Below are positions 2,622 through 48,281 of a DNA stretch of 64,000 nucleotides, piece by piece (position 1 is the first letter of the stretch; each line of letters begins with the position of its first letter). A program made the translations under genes and the position numbers. Under the pieces are notes generated by a model. It saw only the letters and a list, made by a program, of their open reading frames with translations, was not told the origin of the DNA and did not search any database. The DNA lies in assembly GCF_016065055.1 (NCBI RefSeq), contig NZ_CP065856.1:2355836-2419835 (forward strand), in the 5' to 3' direction. The stretch comes from Halosimplex litoreum. Lineage in GTDB: Archaea; Halobacteriota; Halobacteria; Halobacteriales; Haloarculaceae.

Positions 2622-4055
2622 TCACTCCGTCGAGTCGCCGACGGGGAAGCGGTGTTCGCGCTCGACGTGGACGACCGAGGGGTCGATCTCGTCGCCGTCG
2701 ACGGTGACGGGTTCGCCCTCGGCGAGGCGGCCGAGTTTCGGGCCGTCGGGGACGCCGAGCGTGCGGGCGCGGTCGGGGTCGAACGCCGACTCGCTGGCGA
2801 CGACCACCCCGTCGGTCCGATCGACGGTCTCGTACTTCGCTTCGAGCACGGCCGCGAGGTCGTCGACGAGCGCCCGTCCATCGGGGTCGACGGCGAAGAA
2901 CGACGCCGTGTCGGGGCCGGTGGCGCCCTCGACGAGCGCACGGCCCTCGGCGCGGGTCCCGCTCTCGCTCGTCTCGAAGGCGACCGTCGCCCGCTCGACC
3001 GCCGCGCGGGCGGCCTCGCCGTCGATCCCCTGCGCTTCGGCGAGGAGGTCGCCGGGGAGAGCGACGACTGCGAGGACGTCGTCCGCGTCCCCCTCGTGCC
3101 CGGTCGCGCGGTCGCCGAAGCGGACGCCCTCGTCGACGCTCCCAAGCCGATCCTCGGCGACCGCGACCAGATCCAGGGGGATACCGGTCGTCTCGCGGAC
3201 CCACGTCTCGCTCACCGCGCGATAGCCCAGTTCGTCGACGACTCGCTCCAGGTCGGAACGGTCGCCCTCGACGACGGCGTAGTCGGCGGCGCTCGCCTCG
3301 AAGGCGCGGCTGATAACCTCGCGGTTCCGGTCGGGGTCGCCCATCGCGTCGAGCCCCCAGTCGGGTGCGACGTGGCCGACCGCCCAGTCCGTCTCGCCGA
3401 TGATCCGCTCGAAACGAGGGGCGTAGTGGCCACCGCCCAACCCGACGAGCTGTCGGCGGGTGCCGTTCTCGCCGGGCGCGTCGGGGCCGGTGTCGGCGAG
3501 TGTGAGGATGGCACGGGCGACCGCCTCGGCGGCCGCTGGGTCCTCCCACTGCGGTTCGTCGCTGCCGACCTCGACGAACATCGAGGGGACGCCCACGTCG
3601 GTCGGCCCGTGGTGGGTGGCTTCCATGCCGACCTCGTAGCCGTCTGGGGCGTGCTCGCGCAGTGCCGCGAGGACCCGTCGGTGGGCGTTCGGACAGGCGC
3701 GGGCGAACGCGCCGGGTTCCCCGCCGTACTCGGCGGGGCCGACGTTGCCGGTGTGGTGGGCGGTCAGCAGCGGGCCGGTCTCGCCGGCGTGGCGGGAAGC
3801 GAAGACGAGCAGGTCGGGTTCGGTCCGCTCGTCGCCGCCGTCGACGCGACCGAAGGCGTCGGCGACGCCGTCGAGTTCGAGGTGCAAGTCGTCGAACTCG
3901 CGCAACTCGACGGTGTCGGTGCGATAGACGGTCCCGCCCCCGCTGGCGTCGGGCCGCGAGCTATCGGTGTGCTCCGTCCACTCGGTGATACCGCGCAGGC
4001 GCGCTCCGACGTGAGCCGAGGCCGAATCGGCGCGGGAGACGACGATAGCGAGCAT
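2622..4055 (-). CDS. dtdA: D-aminoacyl-tRNA deacylase, archaeal type
   Basis: This enzyme hydrolyses D-amino acids from mischarged tRNA (archaeal GEK1/DTD2 family, zinc-dependent). Family hallmarks are AHHTGN at 99-104, EATHHGPTDVG starting at 145 with the following VEVGSDEPQWED, and GLGGGHYAPRF at 205-215, which carries conserved His residues. At 477 residues it is much longer than the roughly 275-residue core. The region after about residue 285 is an acidic C-terminal extension, which I take to be haloarchaeal. The start lies one nucleotide after the stop of the upstream antiporter gene, so both probably share a transcript. The coupling looks positional; I see no functional link. Confidence 0.93.
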   Translation of the reverse strand: MLAIVVSRADSASAHVGARLRGITEWTEHTDSSRPDASGGGTVYRTDTVELREFDDLHLELDGVADAFGRVDGGDERTEPDLLVFASRHAGETGPLLTAHHTGNVGPAEYGGEPGAFARACPNAHRRVLAALREHAPDGYEVGMEATHHGPTDVGVPSMFVEVGSDEPQWEDPAAAEAVARAILTLADTGPDAPGENGTRRQLVGLGGGHYAPRFERIIGETDWAVGHVAPDWGLDAMGDPDRNREVISRAFEASAADYAVVEGDRSDLERVVDELGYRAVSETWVRETTGIPLDLVAVAEDRLGSVDEGVRFGDRATGHEGDADDVLAVVALPGDLLAEAQGIDGEAARAAVERATVAFETSESGTRAEGRALVEGATGPDTASFFAVDPDGRALVDDLAAVLEAKYETVDRTDGVVVASESAFDPDRARTLGVPDGPKLGRLAEGEPVTVDGDEIDPSVVHVEREHRFPVGDSTE

Positions 4056-18355: not shown

Positions 18356-19636
18356 ATGAGAGACGCGACGGCAGTCGTCGGTGCGGCGCTGGTCGTGCTG
18401 GCGGCGGTGGGCGCGGTGCCCGCCGCGGCCGGTGCCGGCGCGCCAGCGAGTGCGTCGGATACGGGAGCGGGTGCGGCGAGCGCGGGTGCGCTCGCGGACA
18501 CCCACTGCACGTACCCGATGACCGTCACCGACGCGACGGGAACGGAGGTACGGATCGACGAGGACCCCGACCGACTCGCCGCGCTCGCACCGAGCGCCGC
18601 CCAGATCCTCTGGAGTATCGGCGCGGACGACGAGACGGTCGCGATCCCACAGGACTACTACGTCGACTATCTGAACGACACCGAGGGCAAGACCGACGTG
18701 GTCAACGACGACGGCTCGATCGTCACCGAGGCGGTCGTCGGCGCCCAGCCCGACCTGGTGCTCGCACCGAACGTCGTCCCCAACGAGACCGTCGAGACGC
18801 TGCGCTCCAGCGGCCTGACGGTCTACAAGTTCGACGCGGCGTCGGACCTCGAAGACGTGGCAGCCAAGATCGAGCTGTTCGGCCAGCTCACCGGCAACTA
18901 CGAGGCCGCGGGGCAGACGAGCGCCGAGATGCGCGGGCAGGTCCAGGCGGTCCGTGACGCCGTGAGCGGCGAGGACAACCCCCGGGTGTTCTTCTCGCTC
19001 GGCGCCGGGTACACCGCCGGCGAGGATACGTTCGTCGGCCAGATCGTCGCCGCGGCGGGCGGCGACAACGTCGCCGCCGGCGAGATCGACACCTCCAACG
19101 GCTACGGCACGCTCAGCAGCGAGGTCGTCACCCAGAACGACCCCGAGTGGATAATCCAGAACGGCCAGTTCGGCACCGTTCCGAACACCGCGGCGTTCAA
19201 CGGGACCACGGCGGTCCAGGAGGGCAACGTCGTCCGCGTGAACCGGAACTTCATGACCCAGAACGGCCCGAAGAACGTCCAGGCGCTGAAGACGATCGCG
19301 CAGGCGCTCCACCCCGAGGCCTACGAAGCCGTCGACTTCTCGGCCGTGGAGACGCCCCAGCCCGCGACGTGTTCGACACCGACGCCGACCGCGACGCCGA
19401 CCCCGGCCCCGCCGACGGACAGCACGCCCGAGAGCGAGGGCGCGATGGACACCGACGGGACCGCGACCGCGACGACGATGGACACCGACGGGACCGCGAC
19501 CCCGACCGCCGAGTCCGAGAACGGCGCGGGGTCGCCCGTCGGAACGACCACCAGCGGCGACGGCCCCGGCTTCGGCGCGGCGACGGCGCTCGTCGCCCTG
19601 CTCGCGGGCGCGCTCGTCGCTCGGCGTGATCGGTAA
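18356..19636 (+). CDS. btuF: PGF-CTERM-anchored periplasmic-binding protein of the BtuF type
   Basis: 426 residues. A signal peptide (about 1-27) precedes a BtuF/FepB-like domain (about 52-335) with the opening pattern [23 protein letters not shown] low-complexity Thr/Pro/Ser linker follows. The last 25 residues have the archaeal sorting signal: PGFGAATAL, a hydrophobic stretch, then RRDR. This is the PGF-CTERM tripartite form, normally cut by archaeosortase A and lipid-attached. It captures the corrinoid for BtuCD and is divergently transcribed from them. Confidence 0.9.
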
Positions 19637-20325
19637 GAACGTACCTGAACTCTGATTTTTTCGGCGAGAGTGCGCGAGTACTGCGACGACTCTGCGCAAC
19701 CGCGACCGCAGACAGCGCGAACTACCGGGGCGACAGCTCGCGAGCCACTGCGACCGCAGACTGCGTGAAAGCCCCGGCCGTCTTCGGTCGAGGGTAGCGA
19801 GGGACCGAAGATCCCTCGGACAGTCGGGCGACTCCGCCGCCCGACGATCTCGCTGCGCGTTTCGCTCCCTGCGGTCGCTCCAGTGCTTATTCCGAGAGAG
19901 CAAGCTCTCTCGACGTTCGCCTCACTACGTTCGGCTCACCGTCGCCCGTCTTCCCGAAGACGGCCGCCCGTTTCATTCCCGCCCGCGCAGACTGTCCGGC
20001 CAGCCGATACGGGTGGGAATGAAAGGGGCGACGCGCTCGACGAACCCCGGTGAAGTAAGCACCGCAGGGAGTGGAACGACCGAGGAGCGTGGTTCGAAAG
20101 ACGCCGCCGGCGTCTTTCGTCATCACGAGAGAGCTTCGTTCTCTCGAACGACAGCGAACCGCGGGAGTCGAGCGCGTCGGGGCTTTCACGCTGTTCGCGG
20201 TGGTGAAATCGCCATCGGCTGCGGTCGAGCACGTCGCTCCCGAAACCGCTCCGAGCGATCGACACCGCACGTCCCATCGCGGCGACCGGAAAGACCCTTA
20301 CGTAGCCCGGTTCTCAAGTGCGCGT
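19637..20325. repeat. Hairpin-rich gene-free region (dispersed-repeat-like)
   Basis: 689 bp without a convincing gene hold at least seven near-perfect inverted repeats. Paired arms: 19782-19789/19803-19810 (CTTCGGTC); 19798-19804/19812-19818 (CGAGGGA); 19823-19830/19838-19845 (GTCGGGCG); 19893-19901/19904-19912 (CGAGAGAGC); 19946-19953/19956-19963 (CCGTCTTC); 19971-19980/20015-20024 (TTTCATTCCC); 20096-20106/20108-20118 (GAAAGACGCCG). A further one is 20126-20132/20140-20146 (CGAGAGA). The first two overlap and are alternatives. Such palindromes are common in haloarchaeal intergenic DNA; an ncRNA or decayed mobile element is possible. The srp19 TATA-like box lies at its right end. Confidence 0.6.
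20297..20305 (+). promoter_or_regulatory. TATA-like promoter of srp19-gar1
   Basis: ccttacgta lies about 21-29 nt upstream of ATG 20326. This is the usual distance for a leaderless haloarchaeal mRNA. Confidence 0.45.
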
Positions 20326-20604
20326 ATGGTCGAGAACGTCATCTGGCCGGCGGCGCTCGACGCCTCCTGCACGCGCAGCGAGGGGCGTCGGGTAGCGAAG
20401 GACCTCGCCGTGTCGGAGCCGACGGTCGACGAGATCGCACAGGCCGTCCAGCAGGTGGGCTACGACGCCGTCATCGAGCGCGACATGACCTACCCCCGCG
20501 AGTACGAACCCCGCGGGCGCGTCCTCGTCAAGGACGCCGACGACGCGAGCAAGAGCGACCTGCTGGGCGCTGTCGCCGCGTATCTCGGCGTCATCCGGGA
20601 GTGA
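20326..20604 (+). CDS. srp19: Signal recognition particle protein SRP19
   Basis: A 92-residue RNA-binding protein that folds the SRP 7S RNA so that SRP54 can bind. The haloarchaeal pattern is clear: [33 protein letters not shown] near the N-terminus and [14 protein letters not shown] later. Length is normal. It is followed after 19 nt by gar1, a pairing seen across Archaea. ATG 20326 was chosen over the in-frame 20071 start, which runs through the hairpin region and has no family character. Confidence 0.95.
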
Positions 20605-34723: not shown

Positions 34724-35485
34724 TCACCCGCCGGGACAGCCCGTTTCCCACGTCTCCTCGTCGAGGATCACGGGCACGTCCACCGACAGCTCGGAGTCGT
34801 AGCCGGCGAAACGCGTGTCGATAGACGCGCTCGCCGAACTCCCGCCCTGGCTCACTTCGAAGCGGACCGCCGACCGCAGCGGGCGACTCGTCTCGGCGTC
34901 GAGCCAGACCCGCACCGTCGCGTTCTCGACGCTCGGCCCGCCGAGCAGCGACCGGTCGCGTCGTTCCTGATACCTGGTGAGCGCCTCCGTCGTCGGGCGG
35001 CCGACGAGCAGGACCGCCTTCTCGCCGTCGACGGTGCGAGTGCCGTTGTGGGAGAGCGACCCCGATTCGAGCAGCGCGAGCTGGCGCGCGGCCGGCGTCG
35101 TCGTCCGCCAGTCGTCGGCAGTCACGTTCTCGACGCCCCACATGTCCATCCCCATCGGCCCGCCGCACTCCCGGTAGGCGGTCCCGTCGATCACGTACGC
35201 TTCGTGCGCCTCGCCCTCGTGGACGCTCGTCGAGTGCATCCGCCGGTCGGCGGCGTCGACGGTGCCGTTCGTCCCTACCGCGACGCGCTCGGTCTCGCCG
35301 TCGGCTGTCGCGACGACGCGCAGGTCCCCGTCGAAGCGGTAGGTGTCGGTGGCGTTGACGGCGTCACGGGCGTCGGCGAGCGCGGAGGCGGCGCGCTCGT
35401 CGCGGGAGTGGTCCGGGCCGAGCACGGAGCACCCGGCGAGGACGAGACAGACGGCTATGACGAGGTGGAGGGCCGGCCGGTCCAT
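34724..35485 (-). CDS. Haloarchaeal lipoprotein, lipobox LAGC
   Basis: 253 residues. MDRPALHLVIAVCLVLAGC has a lipobox with Cys19. The rest is exported and rich in Thr and Asp, with several N-X-S/T sequons (NAT, NGT, NVT). It may carry a LolA/LppX-like fold (YRFDGDLRVVATADG ... ENATVRVWLDAETSRPLRSAVRFEVSQGGSSASASI), as in haloarchaeal DUF-type lipoproteins. Its gene is divergent from fumC. Function unknown. Confidence 0.78.
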   Translation of the reverse strand: MDRPALHLVIAVCLVLAGCSVLGPDHSRDERAASALADARDAVNATDTYRFDGDLRVVATADGETERVAVGTNGTVDAADRRMHSTSVHEGEAHEAYVIDGTAYRECGGPMGMDMWGVENVTADDWRTTTPAARQLALLESGSLSHNGTRTVDGEKAVLLVGRPTTEALTRYQERRDRSLLGGPSVENATVRVWLDAETSRPLRSAVRFEVSQGGSSASASIDTRFAGYDSELSVDVPVILDEETWETGCPGG

Positions 35486-47576: not shown

Positions 47577-48281
47577 ATGGAGTTCGACGAGTGGGAGCCG
47601 GTCTACGAGGCGGTCCTGGCCGACATGGGGTTCGACCGCGCGGGCGACGAGCGGGCGCGGGACCTGCTCGCCGACCTCGTGGTCGACAGCGGCGGGTCCG
47701 GCTCGCTCGCGCCTGCCGACCTTGACTTCGCCGGCGAGACGGTCGCCGTCGTCGGCGCGGGACCGTCGCTCGGTGACGAACTGGGCGTCGTCCGGGCGGC
47801 CGACAGCGTCGTCGCGGCCTCCGACGCGGCGGCCGCCGTGCGCGAGGCGGGACTGGTCGTCGACTGCATGGTCACCGATCTGGACGAGGAGAGCGACGTG
47901 GCCCGCGAGCTGACCGCCGCGGGGACGCCCGTGGCGGTCCACGCCCACGGCGACAATCGCCCGGCGCTGCGCGAGCGGGTGCCCGAACTGGTCGTCGAGT
48001 CGGTGCTGCCGACGACCCAGGCCGCGCCCGCCGGTCCGGTGGTCGACACGGGCGGGTTCACCGACGGCGACCGCGCGGCCTTCCTCGCCGACCACTGCGG
48101 CGCCGAGACGCTGGTCTTCGCCGGCTGGGACTTCGACGACCCCGACGTGGACCCGCTGAAGGCGCGGAAACTCGGCTGGGCCGAGCGACTGCTCCGGTGG
48201 CTGGAACTGCGGCGCGGCGAGCGCTTCGGCGTGCTGGACGGCCGCCGAGGCGACATCGACGAGTCGGCGCTGCCGGTGTGA
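47577..48281 (+). CDS. mptE: 6-hydroxymethylpterin diphosphokinase MptE-like protein
   Basis: 234 residues from ATG 47577; an in-frame GTG at 47568 overlaps the folP-like stop (GTGA) and could be the real start. DUF115/MptE-like motifs: TVAVVGAGPSLGDEL, VVDCMVTDLDEE and AHGDNRPALRE, and GWDFDDPDVDPLKARKLGWAE. MptE makes the pterin diphosphate that DHPS uses, which fits the adjacent folP-like gene. Confidence 0.85.
   Translation: MEFDEWEPVYEAVLADMGFDRAGDERARDLLADLVVDSGGSGSLAPADLDFAGETVAVVGAGPSLGDELGVVRAADSVVAASDAAAAVREAGLVVDCMVTDLDEESDVARELTAAGTPVAVHAHGDNRPALRERVPELVVESVLPTTQAAPAGPVVDTGGFTDGDRAAFLADHCGAETLVFAGWDFDDPDVDPLKARKLGWAERLLRWLELRRGERFGVLDGRRGDIDESALPV

Follow-up and report, generated by a model that had tools for sequence, protein, structure and literature searches.

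What is the dense cluster of palindromes that lies between a btuF-like gene and srp19-gar1 in Halosimplex litoreum? A first-pass annotation of the window (the whole stretch of 64,000 nucleotides that was analyzed) had offered three readings, namely a decayed mobile element, a dispersed haloarchaeal family of palindromic repeats, or a structured RNA, and allowed that the cluster might simply reflect base composition. We find that the first two readings describe one thing. The element in the window is probably a fold-back transposable element of haloarchaea in an old copy that has eroded at its ends, the relic of an IS6-type MITE. The wording "IS6-type" is used because PMC6807381 argues against placing archaeal elements in the IS6/IS26 family.

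The palindrome cluster

Six perfect, non-overlapping palindromes (arm of at least 7, loop of at most 12) lie within 19747-20205:

19798-19818, 19823-19845, 19893-19912, 19946-19963, 20095-20119 and 20126-20146: perfect palindromes

At the center, 19966-19985 pairs imperfectly with 20010-20029 to form a further hairpin; with this and with longer nested pairs the count comes to at least seven, as the first-pass annotation had claimed for 19637-20325, and its two hairpins with a CGAGAGA core are correctly placed at 19893-19912 and 20126-20146. That interval does contain the cluster, but it overshoots at both ends, the core of the element being 19759-20195. The density is exceptional for the window, as had also been proposed: 459-bp stretches hold 1.19 palindromes on average and six are reached nowhere else, whereas dinucleotide shuffles of the element (n = 200) hold a mean of 0.86 and a maximum of three. 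The runner-up stretch, near 3501-3960, has five palindromes and by eye resembles GC-rich coding DNA. The ORFs that run across the element are mechanical calls from a program-made list.

Architecture of the core and its surroundings

The core is symmetric. Its parts follow one another in the order inner repeat (17 bp), hairpin arm A, hairpin B, arm C and inner repeat, with arm C an inverted homologue of arm A. The features of the locus are as follows.

18356..19636, + strand: btuF-like periplasmic binding protein (PF01497), a neighbor outside the element
19698..19758, + strand: ACCGC-rich, partly duplicated flank, with ACCGCGACCGCAGAC copies spaced 48 bp
19759..19775, + strand: left inner inverted repeat, GACTGCGTGAAAGCCCC (family form AACA[C/G]C-nn-GAAAGCCCC)
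19776..19965, + strand: arm A, stem 19776-19787 with 19954-19965 (12/12 complementary), extra hairpins at 19798-19818, 19823-19845 and 19893-19912
19966..20029, no strand: central hairpin B, the inverted-repeat pair GCCCGTTTCATTCCCGCCCG...CGGGTGGGAATGAAAGGGGC
20030..20178, - strand: arm C, stem 20030-20041 with 20167-20178 (12/12), extra hairpins at 20095-20119 and 20126-20146 (~62 bp missing from the L057 and L058 copies)
20179..20195, - strand: right inner inverted repeat, GGGGCTTTCACGCTGTT
20326..20604, + strand: SRP19 (PF01922), a neighbor outside the element, with the GAR1 gene beyond it

In 32 Halosimplex and 21 other copies, the inner repeat marks the boundary of inverted complementarity. 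We refer to an inner repeat, a hairpin arm and half of B as a half-unit. A covariance model built from 48 half-units of other copies, the window copy not being among its rows, matches the window at 20010-20189 on the - strand (86.2 bits, E 1.9e-21) and at 19765-19985 on the + strand (46.6 bits, E 1.2e-10). Two weak matches elsewhere in the window, at 47844-47932 on the - strand (20.5 bits, E 0.0016) and at 35175-35280 on the + strand (14.7 bits, E 0.062), may be degenerate relics or chance.

Flanks that resemble 19698..19758, or that are cleanly tandem, are found outside many other Halosimplex copies. ACCGC-rich tandem or degenerate arrays directly outside the inner repeats were noted in G000 copies, for example L005 (from 1717), L009 (before 1446), L048 (before 1432) and L012 (after 1661); where the units are clear they measure 15, 18 or 24 bp, and their sequence differs from copy to copy. 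In L013, L020 and L012, the flank to the left of the element has a second GTGAAAGCCCC-like word at a distance of exactly 63 bp from the inner repeat.

A family dispersed through Halobacteriales

BLAST with the window region yielded 131 matches in its own genome, the main places merging to 19. When the listed matches of the model search are added there are 20 copies, and we take the overall number to be about 20. The half-unit model has 37 matches in this genome and 16-50 in each of eight genomes of the genus, so that the family is present in all eight genus genomes searched. Within Halobacteriales, a single BLAST query matched 131 of 195 sampled genomes (47 of 67 genera), and the model matched 84 of 117 genomes (37 of 49 genera), with at most 31 candidates scored per genome in this survey and many per-genome counts therefore to be read as "at least". 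A sample of the phylum had 16 positive genomes among 148, all of them Halobacteriales. Matches also occur in 36 plasmid records, mostly as half-units, and the phage records searched contained none. The copies that the first-pass annotation proposed to look for in this genome and in relatives thus exist, and its suggestion of a dispersed haloarchaeal palindromic repeat family is borne out. Searches of the open-licence literature listed no paper that shows the family, whether by sequence or by description. In the genus-level draft genome G007, contigs end inside near-identical copies of the element (L169-L175), which suggests a recent burst.

Outer ends, target duplications and an IS6-type partner

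Outer ends like GGYNGTGTTYAG, together with 8-bp target duplications, are seen in five younger copies from other places. Perfect (8/8) duplications accompany outer ends and core in L179 (GCGTTCGG), L218 (CCGGAGCC), L247 (GAAAGAAT) and L266 (GCCGGAAG, a half-unit), and the fifth copy with an 8/8 duplication is L163 (CCGACCGC). L179 and L218 belong to G007, L247 comes from the same family, and L163 and L266 come from other families. Copies in G007 reach past the inner repeats to ends of the form ...CTAAACTAAACAC (10 occurrences), which are absent from G000, G001, G002 and G006, where they were also sought. Of 195 genomes, 61 contain the end pattern CGGYNGTGTTYAGTT, and a reversed control gave 3 hits. 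Duplications matching at 7/8 or better flank 14 of 194 candidate end pairs versus 1 of 970 shifted controls, some places being counted twice. One further copy, L245, has a weak core and a 7/8 duplication.

Full intact copies are 308-350 bp long, and the longest ATG ORF in the four intact copies examined is 0-45 codons. The same ends, again with 8/8 duplications, are found on elements of 696-698 bp (L232, L251, L255 and L273). These elements, and L035 with variant ends, encode 211-aa IS6-type transposases that match NF033587 at 187-199 bits (cut-off 125) and also PF13610; L240 and L250 likewise have paired ends, 684 and 683 bp apart. The intact copies are short, noncoding and present in multiple copies, they are flanked by 8-bp target duplications, and their terminal repeats are common to an autonomous IS6-type element whose product is an IS6 transposase. 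Judged by ends, duplications and partner, the younger copies are IS6-type MITEs, in line with the proposal of a decayed mobile element. Two elements of G140 (L265 and L268; 258 and 440 bp) have IS6-type ends and perfect 8-bp duplications without the fold-back core, and are other IS6-type MITEs.

The window copy itself has no recognizable outer ends or duplication and does not qualify as an intact MITE. We call it an eroded relic because its core is homologous to that of the younger copies. Among the 57 copies first collected, L163 is the only one in which outer ends or a duplication could be recognized. The outer-end motif shows no enrichment in old copies (7 of 114 ends, with 12 for the motif reversed). 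When the 57 copies were searched blindly for shared 7-mers, 36 of 57 had them against 0.55 expected, no better than the control, except that this search pointed to L163. The 17-bp inner repeats were also considered as the transposon ends and were rejected, as duplications at offsets 4-15 showed no excess in 53 copies. Neither the complete genome of H. litoreum nor G003 gave an IS6 match at E ≤ 1e-10; the copies in the former therefore now persist without a resident mobilizer.

We propose that an IS6-type transposase would move the core in trans, so that IS6-type elements of haloarchaea would have this family as a MITE. Once inserted, a copy would lose its outer 25-50 bp to erosion and keep the core, which could pair as a fully paired four-way junction, or cruciform. 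If the inner repeats and the hairpins A, B and C all form, this junction would leave no unpaired bases at its center; a long hairpin is the alternative fold predicted for many copies. Inversion and correction of the arms may then come about within the palindrome, by strand exchange or by a switch of template. An alternative history is that of an older core repeatedly captured by IS6 ends.

Comparison with known elements

The closest known counterparts are MITEHarch3 (ISfinder), named in PMC6807381 as an IS6-type MITE of haloarchaea, and a pair of IS6 MITEs, 227 and 336 bp long (PMC7986276). These share with our element of 308-350 bp the lack of a transposase, IS6-type ends and a haloarchaeal setting, whereas the fold-back core, in-place inversion and half-units of our element are absent from the MITE descriptions in the available parts of the two articles. 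The family of the window relic is perhaps MITEHarch3, to judge by description. ISH14, ISH29 and ISHarch12-14 are autonomous partners, unlike our element, which has no ORF. In a table of PMC6807381 they are listed with 696-698 bp, a 211-aa transposase and, where recorded, an 8-bp duplication, and L232, L251, L255 and L273 match them in size, transposase length and duplication.

The SMRs, PATEs and "SwitchRepeats" of Haloquadratum walsbyi are short, palindromic and transposase-free, as is our element. However, as described in PMC3119063, SMRs and PATEs cause no target duplication there, and PATEs are associated with IS605 and have no inverted repeats at their termini. Our element differs from both in its IS6 ends and 8-bp duplications, and its inner and outer inverted repeats as well as these duplications set it apart from PATE/IS605-type elements as characterized there.

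The REP/BIME elements of bacteria are intergenic, multi-copy hairpin units, arranged singly or as inverted pairs and moved by Y1 (RAYT) transposases. Our element resembles them in having single or inverted-pair hairpin units in many intergenic copies, and is unlike them in having IS6-type ends and duplications. Chloroplast minute inversions and AAV terminal repeats are flip-flop hairpins, in which the segment between short inverted repeats flips; the comparison with our element is one of how they work, and no kinship is implied.

Site history and inversion in place

Fourteen btuF-srp19 loci were tested, and a copy is present in two, L057 (apparently H. carlsbadense) and L058 (apparently H. pelagicum). 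The idea that the window copy contains two inserts relative to these was rejected: it is they that have lost most of arm A. Four of the six closest loci (L059-L062) have no element, which indicates gain or loss at the site, and these empty sites are too diverged to reveal a duplication. A GACCGGAAAGACCCTTACGTAG stretch before SRP19 is common to the filled sites and three of the four empty ones. Many pairs of copies have flanks that are orthologous between species, and one site is orthologous between genera (L016/L055 with L149). Other sites exhibit truncation, a remnant with B only (L206) or loss (L202).

The core has been inverted in place between its inner repeats. It aligns better when inverted in 9 of 22 comparisons. 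The comparisons are not independent: two of them carry no information, and of the nine scored as inverted two are weak (a difference of 0.04-0.05). The clearest pairs are L036/L047, with 98% identity inverted versus 65% in the same orientation, and L142/L161, with 95% versus 72%. The inversion junctions fall at the inner repeats. No rule of orientation or gene context was seen among copies that a crude caller placed between codirectional (31), divergent (8) or convergent (7) genes, in unknown context (7) or inside a called ORF (4).

Pairing in the stems

In 51 copies, the two arm stems within a copy pair at 11.49 and 11.63 of 12 positions. These values allowed a one-base shift; a control between copies, with no shift allowed, gave 5.65 of 12, and the matched comparison is the 6.1 of 12 obtained for A versus C' with the same shift. 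From the 57 copies, L022, L031 and L053 were left out because segmentation failed and L015, L021 and L046 because of short arms, and the duplicate loci L007, L011, L018, L019, L030, L050 and L137 were not used. In 48 half-units, 95.3% of 1245 cells are paired, versus 72.1% in shuffles and 36-49% when slid, and stem changes are two-sided in 280 cases and one-sided in 10. Covariation, which the first-pass annotation had set as a check, is therefore present, while the sequence of the loops is conserved across genera. Identical arms in one copy were observed 0 times versus 2.9 expected, a weak avoidance (permutation P 0.07 on the mean).

Mismatch types were counted in 1200 stem cells, skipping one stem per arm class: 1167 are Watson-Crick, 10 are G-T, 12 are A-C and 11 are other. 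G·T mismatches do not outnumber A·C mismatches, which points to pairing maintained at the level of DNA, in a comparison that covers the stems of this family.

What maintains the core

Palindrome correction and selection on structure both fit the persistence of the core. We consider it an even question whether the palindrome is simply neutral, its arms kept and its core flipped by quasi-palindrome correction through template switching at replication forks, with no function. Two-sided compensation with few G-U or A-C intermediates would follow from such a process, and the bounding of inversions by the inner repeats, whole stems that differ between orthologues, and arms that gain or lose hairpins agree with it. 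On its own, however, it fails to explain loop sequence conserved across genera. Neutral correction is compatible with descent from an IS6-type MITE and does not exclude it.

The conserved loops are accommodated by the unlikely proposal that the hairpin unit is a domesticated cis-element of DNA structure, kept by selection and only spread by IS6 ends, with loops bound by a host or plasmid protein or with a cruciform that acts at replication, supercoiling or transfer. Covarying stems beside constant loops, persistence at orthologous sites (including the one in another genus) and persistence in two genomes without an IS6 match speak for it. Yet sites are also lost, truncated or gutted, the copies obey no rule of orientation or gene context, and palindrome correction could mimic selection.

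Plasmids provide a further argument. A half-unit lies in a conserved noncoding module ending in ...CTCGCGACCGACCATTCCGGG on nine plasmids of three families:

L168, L277-L283 and L285: module plasmids of Halorientalis, DL31, DL1, Halorarius, Halobaculum roseum, Halomarina, Haloprofundus, Natrarchaeobaculum and Natribaculum

In seven of the nine, the annotation has an OB-fold or "DNA-binding protein" gene at most ~650 bp from the module, the view of the remaining two covering 500 bp per side. These nine are among 11 plasmids that were opened, hand-picked from the 36 records, which lessens their weight as evidence for selection; the other two, L167 and L284, have no module. On DL31, the hypothetical protein Halar_0093 is annotated across the module. 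A rather doubtful, more specific reading is that the half-unit is a selected DNA-structure cis-element particular to haloarchaea, with loops that are conserved and stems whose sequence is free to change so long as they stay complementary, which was spread by IS6-type ends, kept without ends or transposase, flipped in place, and fixed on large plasmids beside an OB-fold DNA-binding gene. If this is true, the half-unit may be a hairpin signal with a part in plasmid replication, in transfer or in control of the OB-fold gene.

Structured RNA and chance

The proposal of a structured RNA between btuF and srp19 is not supported, and we regard an RNA gene or leader family as very improbable despite strong covariation and deep predicted folds. 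An Rfam search of the element found no family at gathering score, the sub-threshold matches (plant and animal miRNA types and one atpB leader) all being far under the cut-off. An RNA under selection should favor G-U over A-C, and the stems exhibit no such excess. Moreover, the element is self-inverted and nearly strand-symmetric, the covariation is not that of a G-U-tolerant single strand, and copies occur in every gene orientation and flipped in place. Finally, although haloarchaeal DNA has a high GC content and is prone to palindromes, an origin of the cluster by chance, or from the composition of a GC-rich spacer, has practically no probability left, as it is already contradicted by six palindromes against at most three in shuffles, by the two model matches to the window and by the ~20 copies in the genome.

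Conclusions

This repeat, widespread between the genes of haloarchaea, now has a name and a likely mobilizer, without which it would be taken for RNA structure or for noise. It also offers a natural system for following long imperfect palindromes in archaeal chromosomes, in their persistence, self-correction and inversion, and it raises the question of why a fold-back core outlives the ends of its transposon.
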